DNA from: Aureimonas jatrophae
Lineage (GTDB): Bacteria; Pseudomonadota; Alphaproteobacteria; Rhizobiales; Rhizobiaceae
DNA: 64,000 bases
Assembly (NCBI RefSeq): GCF_900104035.1
Contig: NZ_FNIT01000002.1
Span: 124,001-188,000 of the forward strand
Direction: 5' to 3'
Part shown: piece after piece, positions 20,090 through 30,650 of the stretch
Layout of the letters: every line of letters begins with the position of its first letter
Numbering within the stretch: position 1 is the stretch's first letter
The notes under the pieces: model-generated
What the model was told of the DNA's origin: nothing
What the model saw: only the letters and a program-made list of their open reading frames with translations
Database searches by the model: none
Program-made: the position numbers and the translations under genes

Positions 20090-22108
20090 TCAGGCGGGCA
20101 CGGGCGCGGCGGCCTCCACCCTTGTCGCCTCTTCCGGAGGCGCCTTGCGCTTGGGTTCCTCGCGCACGGGAACGCTCGGCCTGCCCTTCGAGAGTTCCAG
20201 CGCGGCGGCGAGCGCGGAGTTCAGCGTCGTCACCAGCGCATCCGCATGGACCCGCCGCTTGAGGTCCTGCAGCATGGCGGGATCGCGCTGCCGCCAGATG
20301 CCCACCATGATGCGGGCCTTGGGCGCGACGCGATGAACCTGTCGCACGGCCTGGCGCAGATGAACCGTCGACAGCGGCTCGATGAACGACAGGCAGACGA
20401 GGGCGACGTCCTGCGCATCCTCGCGCGAGGGCGGGTTTCTGCGCATCTCGGCGAGCGACACGTGCCGTGTTCCCAGCCCATGCCGATTGAGCACCTGGGC
20501 GAGCATCGCGGTCACCGCCTCGTCCAGCGCGTTGGCGCCCGACAGGCAGATCACGGGCGTCTCGCCCTGCCATTCGGGCGCCAGATCCTCGCGCCGCTGG
20601 ACGATGCGCGTCGCCGCCTGGTCGGGACCGGCGGCATCGACGGCAGCGGCCGCCTCCGCCGTCAGATGCTTGGCGGCTCCCGCGCGCCGACGGGCGGACA
20701 CGCCTGCCACGCCGACGCCCTTGAGGCTGTCGACCAGCCGCAGCGTCGAGGCGCGCAGCGTGTCCAGCCGGTCCTCCTTCACCGCGAAACGCGCGACATC
20801 CTCGTGGGCGATGCGCAATCCCTCCAGCGCGACCTCGTCGTAGTAGGTGGCGAGCTCACGCTCGCGCAGGAACTCGCGCGCCTGTTCGGCGGCCTCCTCG
20901 GGGGCGCCCGCCAGCATGCGCTGGTAAAAGATCTGCGGCGGCATCAGCGCAGGCCGGTCGCCCAGCATGACGTCGATGAACTCCAGACGCGGCACGTGGC
21001 GGCCCAGCACCACGAGGCAGATCGTGAGCGGGGTGGCGAGGATCAGGCCGACCGCACCCCACAAAAGGGTCCAGACGGTCGCGGCCAGGAGGATCGCCAC
21101 GGGCGAGAGGCCCGTGGAGTGGCCGTAGAGAACGGGCTCGACGACGTTCGACAGGAGCGCCTCGGCGCCAATGTAGAGGATTGCCGTCCAGATGATCATG
21201 GACCAGCCGGGATCCACCGCGAAGGCGAGCAGCATCGGGAGCCCTGCGCCCACGAAGCCGCCGACATAGGGGATGAAGCGCAGGACGCCGCCGAGGATGC
21301 CCCAGAGGATCGGCGAGGGGACGCCGAGAAACCAGAGGCCGGTCGCGGTCACGACGCCGAACAGGGCGTTGACGCCCAGCTGGAACAAGAGGAGTCGCGA
21401 CAGGCGATGGGCCGCGTCGTCGATCGCAGCCGTCGTCTGCTGGAGGTCGTCGGTTCCCGCCAGGCGGATGAAACGGTTCCGCAGATCCTCCTTCTGGAGG
21501 AGAATGAAGATCGCGAAAACGATCACGATGCCGAAGGTCGCGAGCGGGCTGAGGAGCGGCGTGATCACGGTTGTCGCCGTGGACAGGATCGAGTCCTGGT
21601 TCTGGACCACGACCGGAATGGGCTGGGGGGCTGCCTGCACTGCGGGCGCGGCGCCGGCCGCCGCGCTTGTCGCGGGAGCTCCCAGGTTCTGAAAGTCCTC
21701 GGCCATGCCCTCCAGCGACCGGACGGCCCGGCTCCAGGGACCGTCGCCGCTCGCCTGCGCCGACTGCGAGAGCGCCTCGATCTTCTGTTGCACCGTGATG
21801 CGGTAGGTCGGGATCTCTCCGACCAGCGCACTGATCTGCATCGCGATCGCAAAACCAAGCGCAAGGATCAGGGCCGTGGCCGTCACCATCGCGATGCTGA
21901 CCGCGAGAATGCGCGGCACGCGGCGCTTCTGCAGGGCGATGACGATCGGCGCCAGGATGAAGGACAGGAGAATGCCCAGCGCGAAGGGCACGAAGATCTC
22001 GCGCCCGAGATACAGGATCGAGCCTACCGTCAGGATCAGGACGCTGACCGCCAGCGCGGTGAACAGCGGCAGGGCGCGACGCAGCATCTGCGAGGTGACG
22101 ATATCCAA
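20090..22108 (-). CDS. AI-2E family (PerM-like) permease with long C-terminal extension
   Basis: A 672-residue membrane protein. Residues 15-370 form an AI-2E/PerM-type permease with about eight membrane segments; a loop at about 110-165 rich in Ala/Pro/Gln interrupts the periplasmic region. Family motifs include [19 protein letters not shown] and [17 protein letters not shown]. The last 300 residues are soluble. Residues 520-640 ([20 protein letters not shown] through [13 protein letters not shown]) alternate strands and helices like a cobalamin-binding or other Rossmann-type domain. The start is a TTG at 22108 with GGAG 7 bases before it; ATG 22087 is an alternative without a ribosome site. 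The transported molecule is unknown. Confidence 0.88.
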
Positions 22109-22622: not shown

Positions 22623-24233
<1,611 letters not shown>

Positions 24234-24329: not shown

Positions 24330-24815
24330 TCAGGTGAAGAGTTGCTCGAGCGGGCCGGCCGGCAGGGCCAGGCGCAGAACCTGCGTGAACAGGAGCCAGA
24401 TCGCGAGCGAGAAGAGGATGCCCGCAGGCAACGAGATCCAGAGCTTCCGCTTGCCGAAGGCGCGTGCGGTGAGCGCGAACAGGATGCCGGTGGCGATCGA
24501 GAAGCCGGCGGGGTGCAGCAGGAGGAGCTGCAACGCCAGGCCCGCCACGATCCAGACCACGGGGGCTGTGTCGCTCGGCTCGCGCTCGGGAAAACGGCCG
24601 CGCCAGGCCGAGATCATCGTCCACACGGAGAGGATCACGAGAAAGGCGCCGATCACCGTCGGGAAGGTCGCAGGGCCGATGCGGGCGTAGGCGCCGCCGC
24701 GCACGCTCTGGGCATCCAGGAGCACGAGCGCGCCGAGGATGCCGAGCGCCACCCCGATCAGAAGCGCCGCCCGGTCGGGGCGGCGCTCGTCTTGCGTGGA
24801 GACCGGATGGGTCAC
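24330..24815 (-). CDS. tctB: tripartite tricarboxylate transporter, small permease TctB
   Basis: A 161-residue TctB, the small membrane subunit of the TTT importer, with four predicted membrane segments (for example AALLIGVALGILGALVLLDA and LWISLPAGILFSLAIWLLF). The GTG start at 24815 overlaps the tctC stop (GTGA), which explains the very long upstream open frame: that is out-of-phase tctC. It probably assembles with TctA. Confidence 0.92.
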   Translation of the reverse strand: MTHPVSTQDERRPDRAALLIGVALGILGALVLLDAQSVRGGAYARIGPATFPTVIGAFLVILSVWTMISAWRGRFPEREPSDTAPVVWIVAGLALQLLLLHPAGFSIATGILFALTARAFGKRKLWISLPAGILFSLAIWLLFTQVLRLALPAGPLEQLFT

Positions 24816-25765
24816 TGAACCAGACCGATCGCGGTGAGGACCTCCTTGGTGTCGGCGATGTTCTTCTTCAGCTCGGTCTGGAAGGCGTCGCCGGCCAGGA
24901 ACGTGTTCTGCCAGTTGTTGCGCTCGAGCACGGCCTTCCACTCGGGCGAGTTCGACATCTTCTCCATGTCGGCGGTGATCTGCGCCTTCTGCTCGTCCGA
25001 GATGCCCGGAGCGGCGGCGACCATGCGCCAGTTCTGCAGCGTCATGTCGAGGCCGGCTTCCTTGAGGGTCGGCGCCTCGGAGCCCGGAACGCGCGTTTCG
25101 CCGGTGGTGGCGAGAAGGCGCAGCGTTCCGGCCTTCACCTGGGATTCGAACTCGCCGTAGCCGGAAATGCCGGCGGCGACCTGCTGGCCGAGGATCGCGG
25201 CCAGCGCCTCGCCGCCACCCGAGAAGGCGATATAGTTGATGAGCTTGGGGTCGACGCCCGCGGTCTGCGCCAGAAGGCCGGCCGCGATATGGTCGGTGCC
25301 GCCCGCCGAGCCGCCGGCGATCGCCACCGCGCCGGGATCGGCCTTCATGGCGTTCACGAGATCGGCGATGGTCTGGTAGGGCGAGGAGGCCGGGACGACG
25401 ATCGCCTCGTCCTCGCCGGTGAGGCGCGCGATCGGGGTCACCTGGTCGAGGGTCACGGGCGAGCGGTTGGTGAGGATGGCGCCCACCATGACGTAGCCGC
25501 CGACGAGCAGCGAGTCGGGCTTGCCGGACTTCGAGGACACGAACTGGGCGAGGCCGATCGTGCCGCCGGCGCCCGGGACGTTCACGACCTGGACGTTGCC
25601 GGCGATCTTGGCATCCTGAAGCGTCGCCTGCATGGCGCGGGCGGTCTGGTCCCAGCCGCCGCCGGGCGAGGCGGGCGCGATGATCTCGTAGGACGGGGTC
25701 TGCGCGAAGGCCACGGCCGACGACAGGCATGCGGCCACGAGGCCACCCCAGAATGCAGTCTTCAT
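24812..25765 (-). CDS. tctC: tripartite tricarboxylate transporter, periplasmic receptor TctC
   Basis: A 317-residue periplasmic solute receptor. The signal peptide GLVAACLSSAVAFAQ is followed by the family start YEIIAPASPGGGWDQTAR. The carboxylate-binding loops VPGAGGTIGLAQFV and GGSAGGTDHIAAGLLA are intact. GGGAGGA lies 8 bases before ATG 25765. Transcription probably begins in the 212-bp gap behind the sensor kinase gene, where a direct repeat typical of OmpR-type sites is seen. A close paralogue without permease partners is at 50090-51076. The real ligand could be citrate, tricarballylate or another polycarboxylate. Confidence 0.95.
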   Translation of the reverse strand: MKTAFWGGLVAACLSSAVAFAQTPSYEIIAPASPGGGWDQTARAMQATLQDAKIAGNVQVVNVPGAGGTIGLAQFVSSKSGKPDSLLVGGYVMVGAILTNRSPVTLDQVTPIARLTGEDEAIVVPASSPYQTIADLVNAMKADPGAVAIAGGSAGGTDHIAAGLLAQTAGVDPKLINYIAFSGGGEALAAILGQQVAAGISGYGEFESQVKAGTLRLLATTGETRVPGSEAPTLKEAGLDMTLQNWRMVAAAPGISDEQKAQITADMEKMSNSPEWKAVLERNNWQNTFLAGDAFQTELKKNIADTKEVLTAIGLVQ

Positions 25766-25946
25766 GTCAGTAGTCCTCCCTGGTGCGCCGGGGCGCTTCG
25801 ACCGGGCGCCGGCATGGTCTGGAAGGGGCCTGGAGGTGAAAGACGAGAGGCCGGCACAAGAAGCGGACCCACCGTTGCCGGATGCCGATGGCATGCGCGG
25901 CCGAGCCCTCCCAAGCCCCCGGTCGGTCGGCAAGCTATCCCGCCTT

Positions 25947-25964
25947 CCTGTCAAAAACCTGTCA
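25947..25964 (-). promoter_or_regulatory. candidate TctD (OmpR-family) direct-repeat site
   Basis: Two copies of CCTGTCA (TGACAGG on the transcribed strand) are spaced exactly 11 bases apart, one helical turn, which is the usual layout for OmpR/PhoB-type regulators. The site is about 180 bases upstream of tctC and just past the sensor kinase stop, and one copy lies within TTGACA. Assignment to the adjacent response regulator is inference. Confidence 0.45.
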
Positions 25965-25977
25965 CGCCCCTGATCGG

Positions 25978-28470
25978 TCAGGGAGCCACCATGGCACGTC
26001 CCGCGGACTCGGGCGAGACGATCTCGCGCCATGTCTCCAGAAACCGGTCGCGGCGCTGCCGGTCGAGCCCGACCAGGAGCGAGGGGCCGAGCGCGATCGG
26101 CTGCACCGCGCCCCGCCCGAGCGCGGTGATGCGCTCCGCCGTCCAGGGGCCTTCGGTGCCTGCAACCACCGAGCCGAGCGCCGCCGGGCCGGCCAGGATG
26201 CGCTGGCCGGCGGGCGAGAAGGCGAAGTCGACGAAGCTTTCGGCCAGGTCCGCCCGTCGGGCATCCCGGGGCACGAGCAGCGAGCGGCTGAGCACGAGGA
26301 CGTAGTCGTCCGGCACCGCGATGCCGATGCGCGCGCCCGCCGCCTGGCGCGCGAAGGCGTAGGATCCGAGCACGTTGTAGCCGATCGCGATCTCGCCGCT
26401 CTCGATCCGGTCGAGGATCTCGGGGCTCGCGCCGCTGACGCGCGCGCCCACGCGGCCGAAGGCGCTGGCCAGGCGCCAGAAGTACGAGGAGATCGCCGCA
26501 TCCTGCGAGGCGAGCATGTAGCCGACGCCCGAGCGCGCGACGTCGTAGGTCGCGATGCGCCCGGCAAAGCGCGGGCCCTCGGTTTCCAGGAGTTCGGCGA
26601 GCGCCAGGTGCGTGCGCGGCACCTCGGCCGGCGACACGAGATCGGGATTGTAGACGATCACGGCGGGCTCGAAGCTGACGCCGAAGACCGACGAGCGCCA
26701 CTGCGCCCATTCCGGCAGGAGAACGGCGTGCGGGGGCGACAGGCGCCGTGCGAAACCGTCGTTGACGAGCTTGACCTGGAGGTCGGAGGCCGAGCTCATC
26801 ACGAGATCGGGCACGGGCGTCCGTCCTGCCACGAGCTCCTCGAAGATCGGCCGGGTCTCGTCCTCCACGTAGTCCACCGAAACGTCGGGTCGCGTCTCCT
26901 GGAAGCCGCGCACGAGGGCGGAGAAGAGCGCCGTGTCGGTGGCGCCCAGAATCGACAGGCGCGTGGTTTGCGAGCCGTCGGGCGCGGGATAGGCGGTGGC
27001 GGTGCGCGCGAGCGCGGGCGACGCCAGAAGAAGCGCCGCGAGAACCAGGACAACCGTTGCAAGGCCCGGCGCGCGTGCCGGGCGGGCCGGAACGGGCGCG
27101 GCCCGCAGCGGCAGGGCGAGGCGCACGCGCAACCCGCCGCCCGCGCGATCCTCCAGCCGCACCTCGCCGCCCTGCGCCTGCGCGACGCGCCGCACGATCG
27201 CAAGCCCGAGGCCCGACCCATGACGCCCGCCCGACGTGGTGCCGCGCCGGAACCGCTCGAACACGGCCTCCTTTTCCTCGTCCGGAACGCCCGGTCCCCG
27301 GTCGAGGACGTCGATCTCCAGCTGCTCGCCGATGGCGGCGGCCGTGATCAGCACCGCTCCGTCGCTGTAGCGAAGCGCGTTGTCGACGAGGTTGCGCAGC
27401 ATCTCCCGCAGCGCCACGCGGTCCGACCCGATGCCGATCCCCATCAGCTCGGGCGCGATGTCCAGCGCGACGCGGTCCTCGCTCGCGGGGTCGAGCCGGC
27501 CGATCACCTCGTCGACGATCTGCGCGAGCGAGGTCGGCTCGCTCGGCCGCACCTCCAGGCGATGGGTGATGGTGGCGTCCATCAGGAGTTGCGAGACGAG
27601 GTCGCTTGCCTGCACGGCCCCGTCGTGGATGCGGGCGACCTGGGCGCGCAGAAGCGCCGCGTCCCGCTCGCCGCGCGCCATCTCGGCCTGGGCGCGCAGC
27701 GAGGCCAGGGGCGTGCGCACCTGATGCGCGGCGTCGGCCACGAGTCCCTCCAGGCGTTCGCGCGCCGAGGCGAGACGCCCCATGAAGCCGTTCAGCGCCA
27801 GCACGAGCTGACGCACCTCCTGGGGAACCGGCAGGTCGATCGGAGCCAGCTGGTCGGGCTCGCGGCCGCGCAGGTGCGCCTCGAGGACGTTGAGCGGAGC
27901 GAAGGCCCGGCCGATGCCGAACCAGAGAAGCGCGAGCGCCAGAAGCGTCATCGCCGCCACCGGCAGGAGCGCGCGGTTCCGGATCTCGGCGGCGAGCGCG
28001 GCCCGCTCCACCGCGGTCTCGGCCACGCGGATCGTCACCCATCCCGTGCCGCCAGCCGTGGACACGAGCCGGCCGACGGTCGCGATGCGCACGCGCTCGC
28101 CCCCGAACCGGCCGTCCGCGAAGACCGGATCGGAGTCGCCGGCCGGCGCGAGGCCCGCCGACAGGTCCGGATAGCCGGTGACGTTACGCCCGTCGGGGGC
28201 GTCCACCGCGTAGAAGACGCGATCCTCGCCCGAGAACATCGCGAACGAGGCGAGCGGCAGCTCCACGGTGACGCCGCCGCCCTCGATCTGGACGGCGCCC
28301 GCGATCGTGAGCGCCGAGGCCGCCAGAAGGCGGTCGAACGCGCGGTCGGAGGCGCGCTCGGCATAGTCGCGGATAAAGGCGACCAGAAGCAGCGCGGCCA
28401 GGAGAAGCAGCGCGGACGCCGCCACGAGGATGCGGCGGCGGATCGAGACGGGACGCGGAGGGAGCCTCAT
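25978..28470 (-). CDS. tctE: TctE-like sensor histidine kinase fused to a periplasmic solute-binding protein
   Basis: A single 830-residue open frame. Residues 14-33 and 167-186 are membrane segments around a TctE-type periplasmic sensor. The dimerisation/phosphoacceptor motif is DAAHQVRTPLASLRA with His249. The ATPase domain has NLVDNALRYSD (about 360), DRGPGVP (about 390) and GSGLGLAIV (about 419). After a short Pro/Arg linker comes a third hydrophobic segment (GLATVVLVLAALLLASPALA, about 469-488) and then some 330 residues resembling an ABC iron-type solute-binding protein (SILGATDTALFSALVRGFQE, PEILDRIESGEIAIGYNVLG). No stop separates the halves. The predicted topology puts the binding domain in the periplasm. 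The start overlaps the stop of the regulator gene (ATGA). Confidence 0.85.
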   Translation of the reverse strand: MRLPPRPVSIRRRILVAASALLLLAALLLVAFIRDYAERASDRAFDRLLAASALTIAGAVQIEGGGVTVELPLASFAMFSGEDRVFYAVDAPDGRNVTGYPDLSAGLAPAGDSDPVFADGRFGGERVRIATVGRLVSTAGGTGWVTIRVAETAVERAALAAEIRNRALLPVAAMTLLALALLWFGIGRAFAPLNVLEAHLRGREPDQLAPIDLPVPQEVRQLVLALNGFMGRLASARERLEGLVADAAHQVRTPLASLRAQAEMARGERDAALLRAQVARIHDGAVQASDLVSQLLMDATITHRLEVRPSEPTSLAQIVDEVIGRLDPASEDRVALDIAPELMGIGIGSDRVALREMLRNLVDNALRYSDGAVLITAAAIGEQLEIDVLDRGPGVPDEEKEAVFERFRRGTTSGGRHGSGLGLAIVRRVAQAQGGEVRLEDRAGGGLRVRLALPLRAAPVPARPARAPGLATVVLVLAALLLASPALARTATAYPAPDGSQTTRLSILGATDTALFSALVRGFQETRPDVSVDYVEDETRPIFEELVAGRTPVPDLVMSSASDLQVKLVNDGFARRLSPPHAVLLPEWAQWRSSVFGVSFEPAVIVYNPDLVSPAEVPRTHLALAELLETEGPRFAGRIATYDVARSGVGYMLASQDAAISSYFWRLASAFGRVGARVSGASPEILDRIESGEIAIGYNVLGSYAFARQAAGARIGIAVPDDYVLVLSRSLLVPRDARRADLAESFVDFAFSPAGQRILAGPAALGSVVAGTEGPWTAERITALGRGAVQPIALGPSLLVGLDRQRRDRFLETWREIVSPESAGRAMVAP

Positions 28471-29141
28471 GTCGCCGGCGGCACCCGCGCGACGTAGCCG
28501 GTGCCGCGCACGGTCACGATCTCGACGCGCGAGCCCTCCAGCTTGCGGCGAAGGCGTGAGACGTAGAGTTCCAGCGCGTTGGTCGAGACCGGCTCGTCGA
28601 ACGAGAAGAGTTGCGTCATCAGGCTCTCCTTCTGCACCACGACGCCGGGCCGCGACAGAAGGATCTCGAGCAGGCGGAACTCGCGTCGGCCGAGATCCAC
28701 CGTCGCCTCGCCGACCCGCACGAGCCGCCCTGCCGCGTCGAGGCTGAGGTCGCCGAAGCGCGCGAGGCTGGTCGTCTGCCCCGCCTGCCGGCGCAGAAGC
28801 GCGCGCAGCCGCGCGTCGAGCTCGCGCAGGTCGAAGGGCTTCACGAGGTAGTCGTCGGCGCCCTGGTCGAGGAGGCTGATCTTGTCGTCGATCTCGGAGC
28901 GGGCCGTGACCACGAGAACCGGGGTGCCGACGCGCTCGCGCCGCATCTGCGCGATCACCGACAAGCCGTCGCGGCCGGGCAGCGTCAGGTCGAGGATCAC
29001 CGCGTCGAACGGCTCCAGCGACAGCGCCTCCCAGGCGTCCTCGCCCGTGCGGACCCATTCCACGGAATGGCCCGAGACCCGAAGGTGGTGGTTCACCGCC
29101 TCGCCCAGGCCCTCGTTGTCCTCCACCAGGAGCATGCGCAT
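28467..29141 (-). CDS. tctD: OmpR-family response regulator TctD
   Basis: A 224-residue response regulator. The receiver domain begins MRMLLVEDNEGLGEAVN, with the acidic pair, the phospho-Asp in VILDLTLPGRDG and the Lys in DYLVKPFDLREL. The winged-helix DNA-binding domain ends VSRLRRKLEGSRVEIVTVRG. ATG 29141 is chosen; in-frame GTG-type upstream extension adds only Arg/Ala-rich residues. It is followed by the kinase with an ATGA overlap and then tctCBA on the same strand, as in known TctD/TctE-controlled loci. It is divergent from the SAF-domain oxidoreductase gene. Confidence 0.94.
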   Translation of the reverse strand: MRMLLVEDNEGLGEAVNHHLRVSGHSVEWVRTGEDAWEALSLEPFDAVILDLTLPGRDGLSVIAQMRRERVGTPVLVVTARSEIDDKISLLDQGADDYLVKPFDLRELDARLRALLRRQAGQTTSLARFGDLSLDAAGRLVRVGEATVDLGRREFRLLEILLSRPGVVVQKESLMTQLFSFDEPVSTNALELYVSRLRRKLEGSRVEIVTVRGTGYVARVPPAT

Positions 29142-29318
29142 GCGCCGGCCGTCTCTCGCCCCGGCCCGCGCCGGCATCTGCGGCGCAGACTAGAGCCACC
29201 GCGGCAAATTCTCAAACGCGCCGCGACCACGGCGAGCCTTGGTTGCCGCCTATGGGTCCCCGCGGCTATGCGTCTGGCGCGGCCCGCTCGCGGAGCGGGC
29301 GCCACGGGAGAAGACGGA

Positions 29319-30650
29319 ATGCACGAGATCGCGCGGGTCGGACTGGCGGCGGAACTGGTGGCCCATGCGGAGCGGAGCGGACCGGTCACGATCGGCGTGG
29401 CGGGCGCGGGCCAGATGGGCACCGATCTCATGGTGCAGCTGCGCCTCATGCCGGGCGTGCGGCTCGGCGCGCTCTCGACCTCGCGCCCCGACCATGCCGA
29501 GGCGGTGCTCGCCTTCGCCGGCTACGGGCCGGACGAATCGGTGCGCGTGCGCGACACGGACGGCGTGAACCGGGCGATCGAGACGGGCCGGGTCGCGATC
29601 GTGGAGGATTTCCGCACCTTCTGCGCGGCGGGCCGCGTCGATGCGGTGATCGACGCCACCGGATCCCCCAGCGTCGGAACGGTGCTGGCGCTGGAGGCGA
29701 TCCGCTATGGGCGCCATGTCGTGATGATGAACGTCGAGGCCGACATCACGATCGGTCGCCATCTGGCGGCCGAGGCGCGGGCGGCGGGCGTCGTCTACAC
29801 GGGGGCGGCCGGCGACGAGCCGCACGCGACGCTGGAGCTGATCGGCCTCGCCCAGTCTCTCGGCCTCGAGATCGTGGCGGCCGGCAAGGGCAAGAACAAC
29901 GCGCTCGACTTCTCGGCCGTGCCCGCCGACTACGAGGCCGAGGCCGCGCGCCGCAACATGAACGCCCGCATGCTGGTGGAGTTCGTGGACGGCACCAAGA
30001 CCATGGTCGAGATGGTGGCGATCGCCAACGCCACCGGGCTCGTGCCCGACAAGCCGGGCATGCACGGTCCGAACGCCACGATCGACGACCTCGCGCAGGT
30101 CCTGTGCACCAAGGCCGACGGCGGCATCCTCTCGCGCTCGGGCGTCGTCGACTACACGATCGGCCGGGGCGTCGCGCCCGGCGTCTTCTGCATCGTGAAG
30201 CCGAAGCATCCGCGCGTCCTGGAGCGCATTGCCGACCTCAAGGTCGGGCCCGGCCCCTGCTTCGCGCTGATCCGGCCCTTCCACCTGACCTCGCTCGAGG
30301 TGCCGCTCTCGGCGGTCCACGCCGTGATGCGCGGCGTGCCGCACATGGAGCCGCTGGACCGCCCCGTCGCCGAATGCGCGGCGGTGGCCAAGCGCGACCT
30401 TGCGCCCGGCGAGCGCCTGGGGCGCATCGGCGAAACCGAGTATCGCGGCTTCGCCATGACCTGGGAGGACGCGCGCGCGGCGCAAGCGCTGCCGATCGGC
30501 CTGGCCGAGGGCGGACGCGTCACGCAGCCGATTCGCGCGGGCGAAAAGCTGACCTATGCGAACTGCGCGCCGGACGAGACGCAGGAGGTCACGCGCATCC
30601 GCCGGCTTCTGGACGCGGCGGACGGGCGTTTTCTCGGCCGCGCCGCCTGA
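29319..30650 (+). CDS. homoserine-dehydrogenase-like NAD(P) oxidoreductase with SAF domain
   Basis: A 443-residue protein. The N-terminal Rossmann fold shows TIGVAGAGQMGTDLM and the conserved AVIDATGSPSVGTVLALEAI. The middle catalytic-like region contains AAGKGKNNALDFSAVP, and the C-terminus has a SAF domain (ECAAVAKRDLAPGERLG, IGLAEGGRVTQPIRAGEKLT). This architecture is known from families annotated as homoserine-dehydrogenase-like oxidoreductases of carbohydrate-acid loci; the substrate here is unknown. ATG 29319 has GGAG 8 bases upstream. A small hairpin (CCCGCTC/GAGCGGG, 29283-29299) lies in the leader. Its position ahead of transketolase and gnd hints at sugar or sugar-acid metabolism. 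Confidence 0.88.
   Translation: MHEIARVGLAAELVAHAERSGPVTIGVAGAGQMGTDLMVQLRLMPGVRLGALSTSRPDHAEAVLAFAGYGPDESVRVRDTDGVNRAIETGRVAIVEDFRTFCAAGRVDAVIDATGSPSVGTVLALEAIRYGRHVVMMNVEADITIGRHLAAEARAAGVVYTGAAGDEPHATLELIGLAQSLGLEIVAAGKGKNNALDFSAVPADYEAEAARRNMNARMLVEFVDGTKTMVEMVAIANATGLVPDKPGMHGPNATIDDLAQVLCTKADGGILSRSGVVDYTIGRGVAPGVFCIVKPKHPRVLERIADLKVGPGPCFALIRPFHLTSLEVPLSAVHAVMRGVPHMEPLDRPVAECAAVAKRDLAPGERLGRIGETEYRGFAMTWEDARAAQALPIGLAEGGRVTQPIRAGEKLTYANCAPDETQEVTRIRRLLDAADGRFLGRAA

Follow-up and report, generated by a model that had tools for sequence, protein, structure and literature searches.

A TctE-like sensor kinase joined in frame to an MctA-related solute-binding protein in Aureimonas jatrophae, and its possible processing into a kinase and a dedicated co-receptor

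The window, which is the whole 64,000-nucleotide stretch of Aureimonas jatrophae DNA analyzed here (contig NZ_FNIT01000002.1, positions 124,001 to 188,000), carries on its minus strand a TctD-like response regulator gene, a fused gene encoding a TctE-like histidine kinase and a periplasmic solute-binding protein (SBP), and the genes tctC, tctB, and tctA, in that order (Table 1). The stop codon of the regulator overlaps the ATG of the fused gene by four bases (28470-28467). The best NCBIfam match of the regulator was TctD PRK15479, and because its score of 201.6 bits is below the 337-bit equivalog cut-off, we refer to it as TctD-like and not as TctD. Neighboring plus-strand genes in the window encode, according to Pfam, a DRL-type oxidoreductase, a transketolase, and a 6PGD-like dehydrogenase. 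An open frame of 871 residues (25882-28497) also spans the fused gene on the plus strand, and is probably a mere consequence of GC-rich coding DNA.

Table 1. Fused gene, its parts, and its minus-strand neighbors, in coordinates of the window.
Feature	Position	Strand	Length or residues	Evidence and remarks
TctD-like response regulator	28467..29141	-	224 aa	Pfam Response_reg and Trans_reg_C
Fused TctE-like histidine kinase and periplasmic SBP	25978..28470	-	830 aa	ATG at 28470, stop ends at 25978, internal stops 0; same frame in at least 51 loci including the window
Kinase TM1	28372..28431	-	residues 14-33	hydrophobic core of 20 residues
2CSK_N periplasmic sensor domain	27982..28407	-	residues 22-163	Pfam PF08521, E 6.7e-35
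HisKA with phospho-acceptor His249	27565..27750	-	residues 241-302	Pfam PF00512; H249 invariant in 5 rows
HATPase_c	27103..27423	-	residues 350-456	Pfam PF02518, E 9.6e-25
Signal-peptide-like internal segment	27007..27063	-	core 470-488	predicted cut after Ala488 (27007/27006)
SBP, MctA/FbpA type	25981..27006	-	residues 489-830	3c9h, E 8.6e-63; MctA 7f6 entries, E ~1e-42
tctC, the transporter's own receptor, separate gene	24812..25765	-	317 aa	Pfam TctC, E 6.8e-26
tctB	24330..24818	-		Pfam TctB, E 1.2e-21; probable start GTG at 24815
tctA permease	22623..24233	-		Pfam TctA, E 3e-147

The fused gene was first described in an earlier note, made from the sequence alone, as a continuous frame that joins a complete TctE-like kinase to a solute-binding domain at its C-terminus. 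Our analysis agrees with these points. The frame has no internal stop, and all of the domains of a TctDE-type kinase (2CSK_N sensor, HisKA, and HATPase_c) were found in the fused chain by Pfam. When the window was compared with four named Aureimonas rows, His249 and the N, G1, F, and G2 box residues were invariant among all five. The N-terminal sensor is still present, as the note had also stated. The SBP_bac_11 family matched residues 513-760, where other SBP families matched as well.

We then considered the distribution of this architecture. Kinase and SBP were found in one stop-to-stop frame in at least 51 loci (50 plus L117), the window included, which give 47 distinct rows once four identical rows are removed. 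Within the genus, 20 of 21 genomes had a full-length match, all of which read as a single frame. Searches at the family, order, and class levels covered 101, 397, and 385 genomes, respectively, and added fused loci in other families. The closest named genome record was Aureimonas sp. AU4 (~90% identical), and identities of the fused frames run from 90% to about 35%. Four named Aureimonas records, Peteryoungia desertarenae (L081), and Azospirillum argentinense (L080) are among the fused loci. The L080 and L081 proteins, the two that we opened, are annotated merely as "extracellular solute-binding protein," a label that conceals the kinase part. An assembly or sequencing artifact that joined two genes, the danger raised by the earlier note, is conceivable in that some homologs are split and overlapping and could be merged by no more than a small indel error. 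However, the same single frame in at least 51 loci, from many assemblies and across the full range of identities, contradicts this explanation, and we consider it ruled out for all practical purposes.

Separate overlapping genes in relatives, which the earlier note had envisaged, were found as well. The kinase and SBP are encoded by adjacent co-directional genes in at least 33 loci, which range in taxonomy from members of the same family to other classes of the phylum, and in 27 of the 31 split loci examined the SBP start codon lies at a four-base overlap with the kinase stop. This overlap places the two genes in different frames, so that fusion requires an indel. The loci were selected by their match to a kinase-SBP query, and these fused and split counts are not frequencies. 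Two seemingly full-length rows (G342 and G257) turned out to be split on reading. We set aside loci in which the top kinase match and the top SBP match are on different strands (at least 11), loci with the SBP and no kinase in the fetched stretch (at least 7), and loci with a kinase match and no SBP (at least 10). The first two of these groups speak against a strict pairing of kinase and SBP. One locus, L151, carries the SBP type on both strands, where one copy accompanies a kinase/regulator pair and the other is divergent. In the genome of the window, none of the 26 other matches to the fused protein extended past query residue 503, and thus no second SBP of the fused type was found there.

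A tree of 80 kinase plus SBP rows, fused and split and with long branches present, required at least five changes of the fused label, of which well-supported branches force three. The hypothesis that all fused rows belong to one clade was rejected (p-AU 1.7e-64), so that fusion (or fission) occurred more than once. The architecture is real and recurrent, be it by fusion or by fission. Among neighborhoods of our choosing, the stretch also contained tctA and tctC in 22 of the 25 with a fused gene and in 18 of the 23 with split genes. No tctA was found in three of these 25 fused neighborhoods (L128, L129, and L130), of which L128 is truncated by the contig end. The L079/L130 locus (G495, same genus) is a second fused paralog, 42% identical, which shares its genome with L078; its fetched stretch had no tctA match, and it may have a different ligand.

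The nature of the segment that joins the two parts determines how the fused protein is to be read. The earlier note took this segment for a third membrane segment. A hydrophobic segment is indeed present, but its role as an anchor is doubtful when its sequence is compared with other hydrophobic segments. We compared the 47 distinct fused junctions with the TM1 and TM2 of the kinases and with the N-termini of 29 split SBPs; four of the 33 split rows had no usable leader and were left out (L085, L115, L118, and L119, the last two being lipobox-like). The junction cores had a median of 15 residues and a hydropathy sum of 23 (n = 47), compared with 15 residues and 22 for the split SBP leaders (n = 29), with no measurable difference in hydropathy (p = 0.17) or length (p = 0.31). 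In contrast, the TM1 of the fused proteins had a median core of 20 residues and a hydropathy sum of 43 (n = 51, identical rows retained), which was strongly different from the junction (p = 5e-17 for hydropathy and p = 3e-13 for length, values that overstate the case since the rows are related and not independent). In every one of 26 representatives of our choosing, the junction was weaker than TM1. The ten positions ahead of the junction core hold a mean of 2.7 basic residues and 0.4 acidic ones.

Signal peptidase I sites follow a (-3,-1) rule, with small residues at both positions. In the aligned junctions, position -1 was Ala in 41 of 46, position -3 was small in 41 of 46, and position -2 was large or polar in 34 of 46 (L060, one of the 47 rows, is gapped at these columns). 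The corresponding counts among representatives were 21, 21, and 19 of 25. The linker was 25% identical among 18 main-clade representatives vs. 61% and 64% for the domains. Judged from sequence, the junction columns present a signal peptidase I pattern that is kept while the surrounding linker drifts, and the basic n-region, short h-region, and small -3 and -1 residues are all found as a pattern of the family. The AxA motif occurred in 37 of 47 junction windows, compared with 30.6 expected by shuffling, and because these windows are Ala-rich and yield the motif nearly as often when shuffled, we rejected the AxA count alone as proof of cleavage. The case rests instead on how long and how hydrophobic the cores are and on the column pattern. 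We thus favor the reading that the joining hydrophobic segment is probably the former signal peptide of the SBP, given its resemblance to the leaders of the split SBPs. In the window, the predicted natural cut site is after Ala488, with the -1 Ala one alignment column out of register with the other rows.

The earlier note had instead proposed that the receptor is tethered beside the sensor of the kinase, with the third segment staying uncut in the membrane and the SBP serving as a built-in co-sensor. The two are certainly encoded as one chain in a single frame, and the core of the window's own junction has 19 residues, which puts it toward the long end, as 8 of 47 cores reach 19 or more. Some related split SBPs also look lipid- or signal-anchored, which suggests that membrane-held versions exist: the leaders of L118 and L119 are lipoprotein-like (LAGC and LAAC), and those of L022 and L024 resemble an uncut signal anchor. 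Lipobox-like or anchor-like leaders seem to be an alternative way to keep a sensor SBP at the membrane. These four relatives, the long core in the window, and the relatedness of the rows keep the tether in consideration as the main rival reading, though a less likely one. However, the junction cores resemble split SBP leaders and not TM1 or TM2, and the -3/-1 pattern is retained in an otherwise diverged linker. A permanent tether is thus doubtful, and we put processing of the chain above it.

A separate SBP could in principle also arise from the same gene by internal re-initiation. Some in-frame ATG, GTG, or TTG is found upstream of the core in 41 of 47 junctions, but 34 of the 47 have no ATG there, and the window has only TTG and GTG, 21-23 codons before the core. 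The positions vary between rows, with no conserved start among the 47 junctions, and we therefore reject re-initiation as very improbable.

The SBP itself was compared with solved structures. Its homologs include 3c9h and the MctA 7f6 series (~317 residues matched in the latter), whose entry titles name MctA as a metal-citrate-binding protein and list the mutants S26A, D28A, S79A, S164A, T199A, Y221A, and Y221F. Mapped by hand through printed alignments, S26, D28, S79, S164, T199, and Y221 correspond to A510, D512, S560, S647, S682, and Y704 in the window, so that five of the six probed citrate-site residues are kept or conservatively replaced and S26 is replaced by Ala. Of 80 rows, fused and split, 75 conserve D512, 77 S560, 74 S647, and 78 Y704; position 682 is S or T in 74, and position 510 is variable. 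Structure predictions from five-row alignments gave poor models (pLDDT 50.8 and 50.1), and fold searches were thus used to obtain entry titles and otherwise count as weak support.

Identity of the fused SBP with TctC was ruled out, as Pfam matched the SBP_bac_11, 6, 1, and 8 families and no TctC among nine families (E ≤ 0.1). Since tctC is encoded separately (25765-24812), the fused SBP is not the receptor of the transporter, and its sequence identifies it as a second, MctA-related receptor. It could also be that this SBP serves transport, working with either the TTT permease or an importer of the ABC type, and that fusion to the kinase merely co-expresses it. The nearest solved relatives are indeed named as binding proteins of ABC transporters, and the loci with the SBP and no kinase nearby fit such a role. 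However, no ABC gene was found among the neighboring window genes tested by Pfam, and TctC is already present as the receptor for the transporter, which makes a transport role improbable.

A citrate-like carboxylate is our best prediction for the ligand, based on the conservation of the MctA site, the nearby tctA and tctC, and a copy of the cluster beside an aconitase gene in Bosea. This split regulator-kinase-SBP cluster, on a Bosea plasmid (L082, 1-7330), adjoins acnA and a gene for an isocitrate/isopropylmalate-type dehydrogenase. The oxidoreductase, transketolase, and 6PGD-like neighbors in the window would also be compatible with a sugar acid, and the ligand may not be citrate. The DRL-type oxidoreductase (28611-30650, plus strand), with DRL_cat and homoserine-dehydrogenase-type NAD domains, is divergent from the regulator, probably has its true start near 29.3 kb, and may hint at catabolism of the ligand of the sensor. 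Our literature search found no citrate-binding protein of Thermus.

Together, these observations suggest a three-component sensor for organic acids, made as a precursor that is cut by signal peptidase and in which the free SBP activates the kinase and induces tctCBA, a model to which we give an even chance. In this model, the SBP would be made as the tail of the kinase chain, and the joining segment would insert with its N-terminus in and C-terminus out, which would export the SBP. Signal peptidase I would then most likely cut after about residue 488 and release kinase and free SBP in equal amounts. The dedicated MctA-type SBP would capture its carboxylate, predicted to be citrate-like, in the periplasm, and the loaded SBP would dock on the 2CSK_N domain of the kinase, by analogy with BctC and HptA. 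The kinase would signal to the adjacent TctD-like regulator, and we infer that tctCBA would be switched on. The fusion would ensure that as many receptors as kinases are made, and at the same place. A two-component polyprotein that signal peptidase matures 1:1 into a kinase and its dedicated co-receptor, reached repeatedly from overlapping genes, is about as probable as not.

We consider the architecture best filed among SBP-assisted two-component systems. Kinases of the BvgS/EvgS type have Venus-flytrap sensor domains at the N-terminus, before the kinase. They also combine a binding-protein fold and a kinase in one chain, but their flytraps precede the kinase, whereas the SBP described here follows it behind a signal-peptide-like segment. 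Placement of a membrane protein and an exported protein in one chain is known from the FbcH cytochrome b/c1 precursor of Bradyrhizobium, which has been shown experimentally to be cut at an internal signal sequence. FbcH, however, belongs to a respiratory complex and not a sensor, and its cleavage is experimental where ours is predicted. This precedent was not returned by our literature search, and PMC6256036 contains neither "precursor" nor "cleav."

In Bordetella, according to two reviews, citrate-loaded BctC is needed for signaling through BctE (PMC5812351; PMC9602780), which bears out the earlier note's suspicion of contact between receptor and kinase in bct systems. The BctC-BctE-BctD and TctCBA-TctDE systems share with the fused locus the kind of kinase and regulator, an adjoining TTT transporter, and signaling from receptor to kinase. 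In bct and tct systems, however, the signaling receptor is the transporter's own TctC-family protein on a separate chain, whereas here it would be a second SBP in the kinase chain. A report on Staphylococcus aureus states that HptA shifts on HptS upon binding glucose-6-phosphate (PMC8774646). The likeness to HptASR is that a secreted binding protein acts on the extracytoplasmic domain of a kinase; HptASR differs in having separate genes and another ligand and kinase. No HptA-named chain was among the 24 sequence matches of the fused SBP at E ≤ 10. MctA and 3c9h are homologs of the fused SBP, with most of the MctA citrate-site residues kept, but they are named as ABC transporter proteins and their deposited chains have no kinase. 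We recognized no description in the literature of a kinase, TctE or other, with a C-terminal SBP, which is a weak negative as subscription papers were largely outside the search.

SBP-assisted kinases are described as widespread, but according to one review only about 10 sensor-kinase cases have been characterized (PMC9602780). The fusion, being natural, argues strongly at the genetic level that this SBP goes with the kinase, and docking can now be tested with a single gene. A cut chain would be an unusual precursor of a bacterial sensor, and an uncut one would be a kinase with two periplasmic inputs.

The window also encodes an AI-2E-family transporter (20090-22108, minus strand), in which the Pfam match spans only residues 19-367 of 672, leaving a C-terminal extension of about 300 residues.
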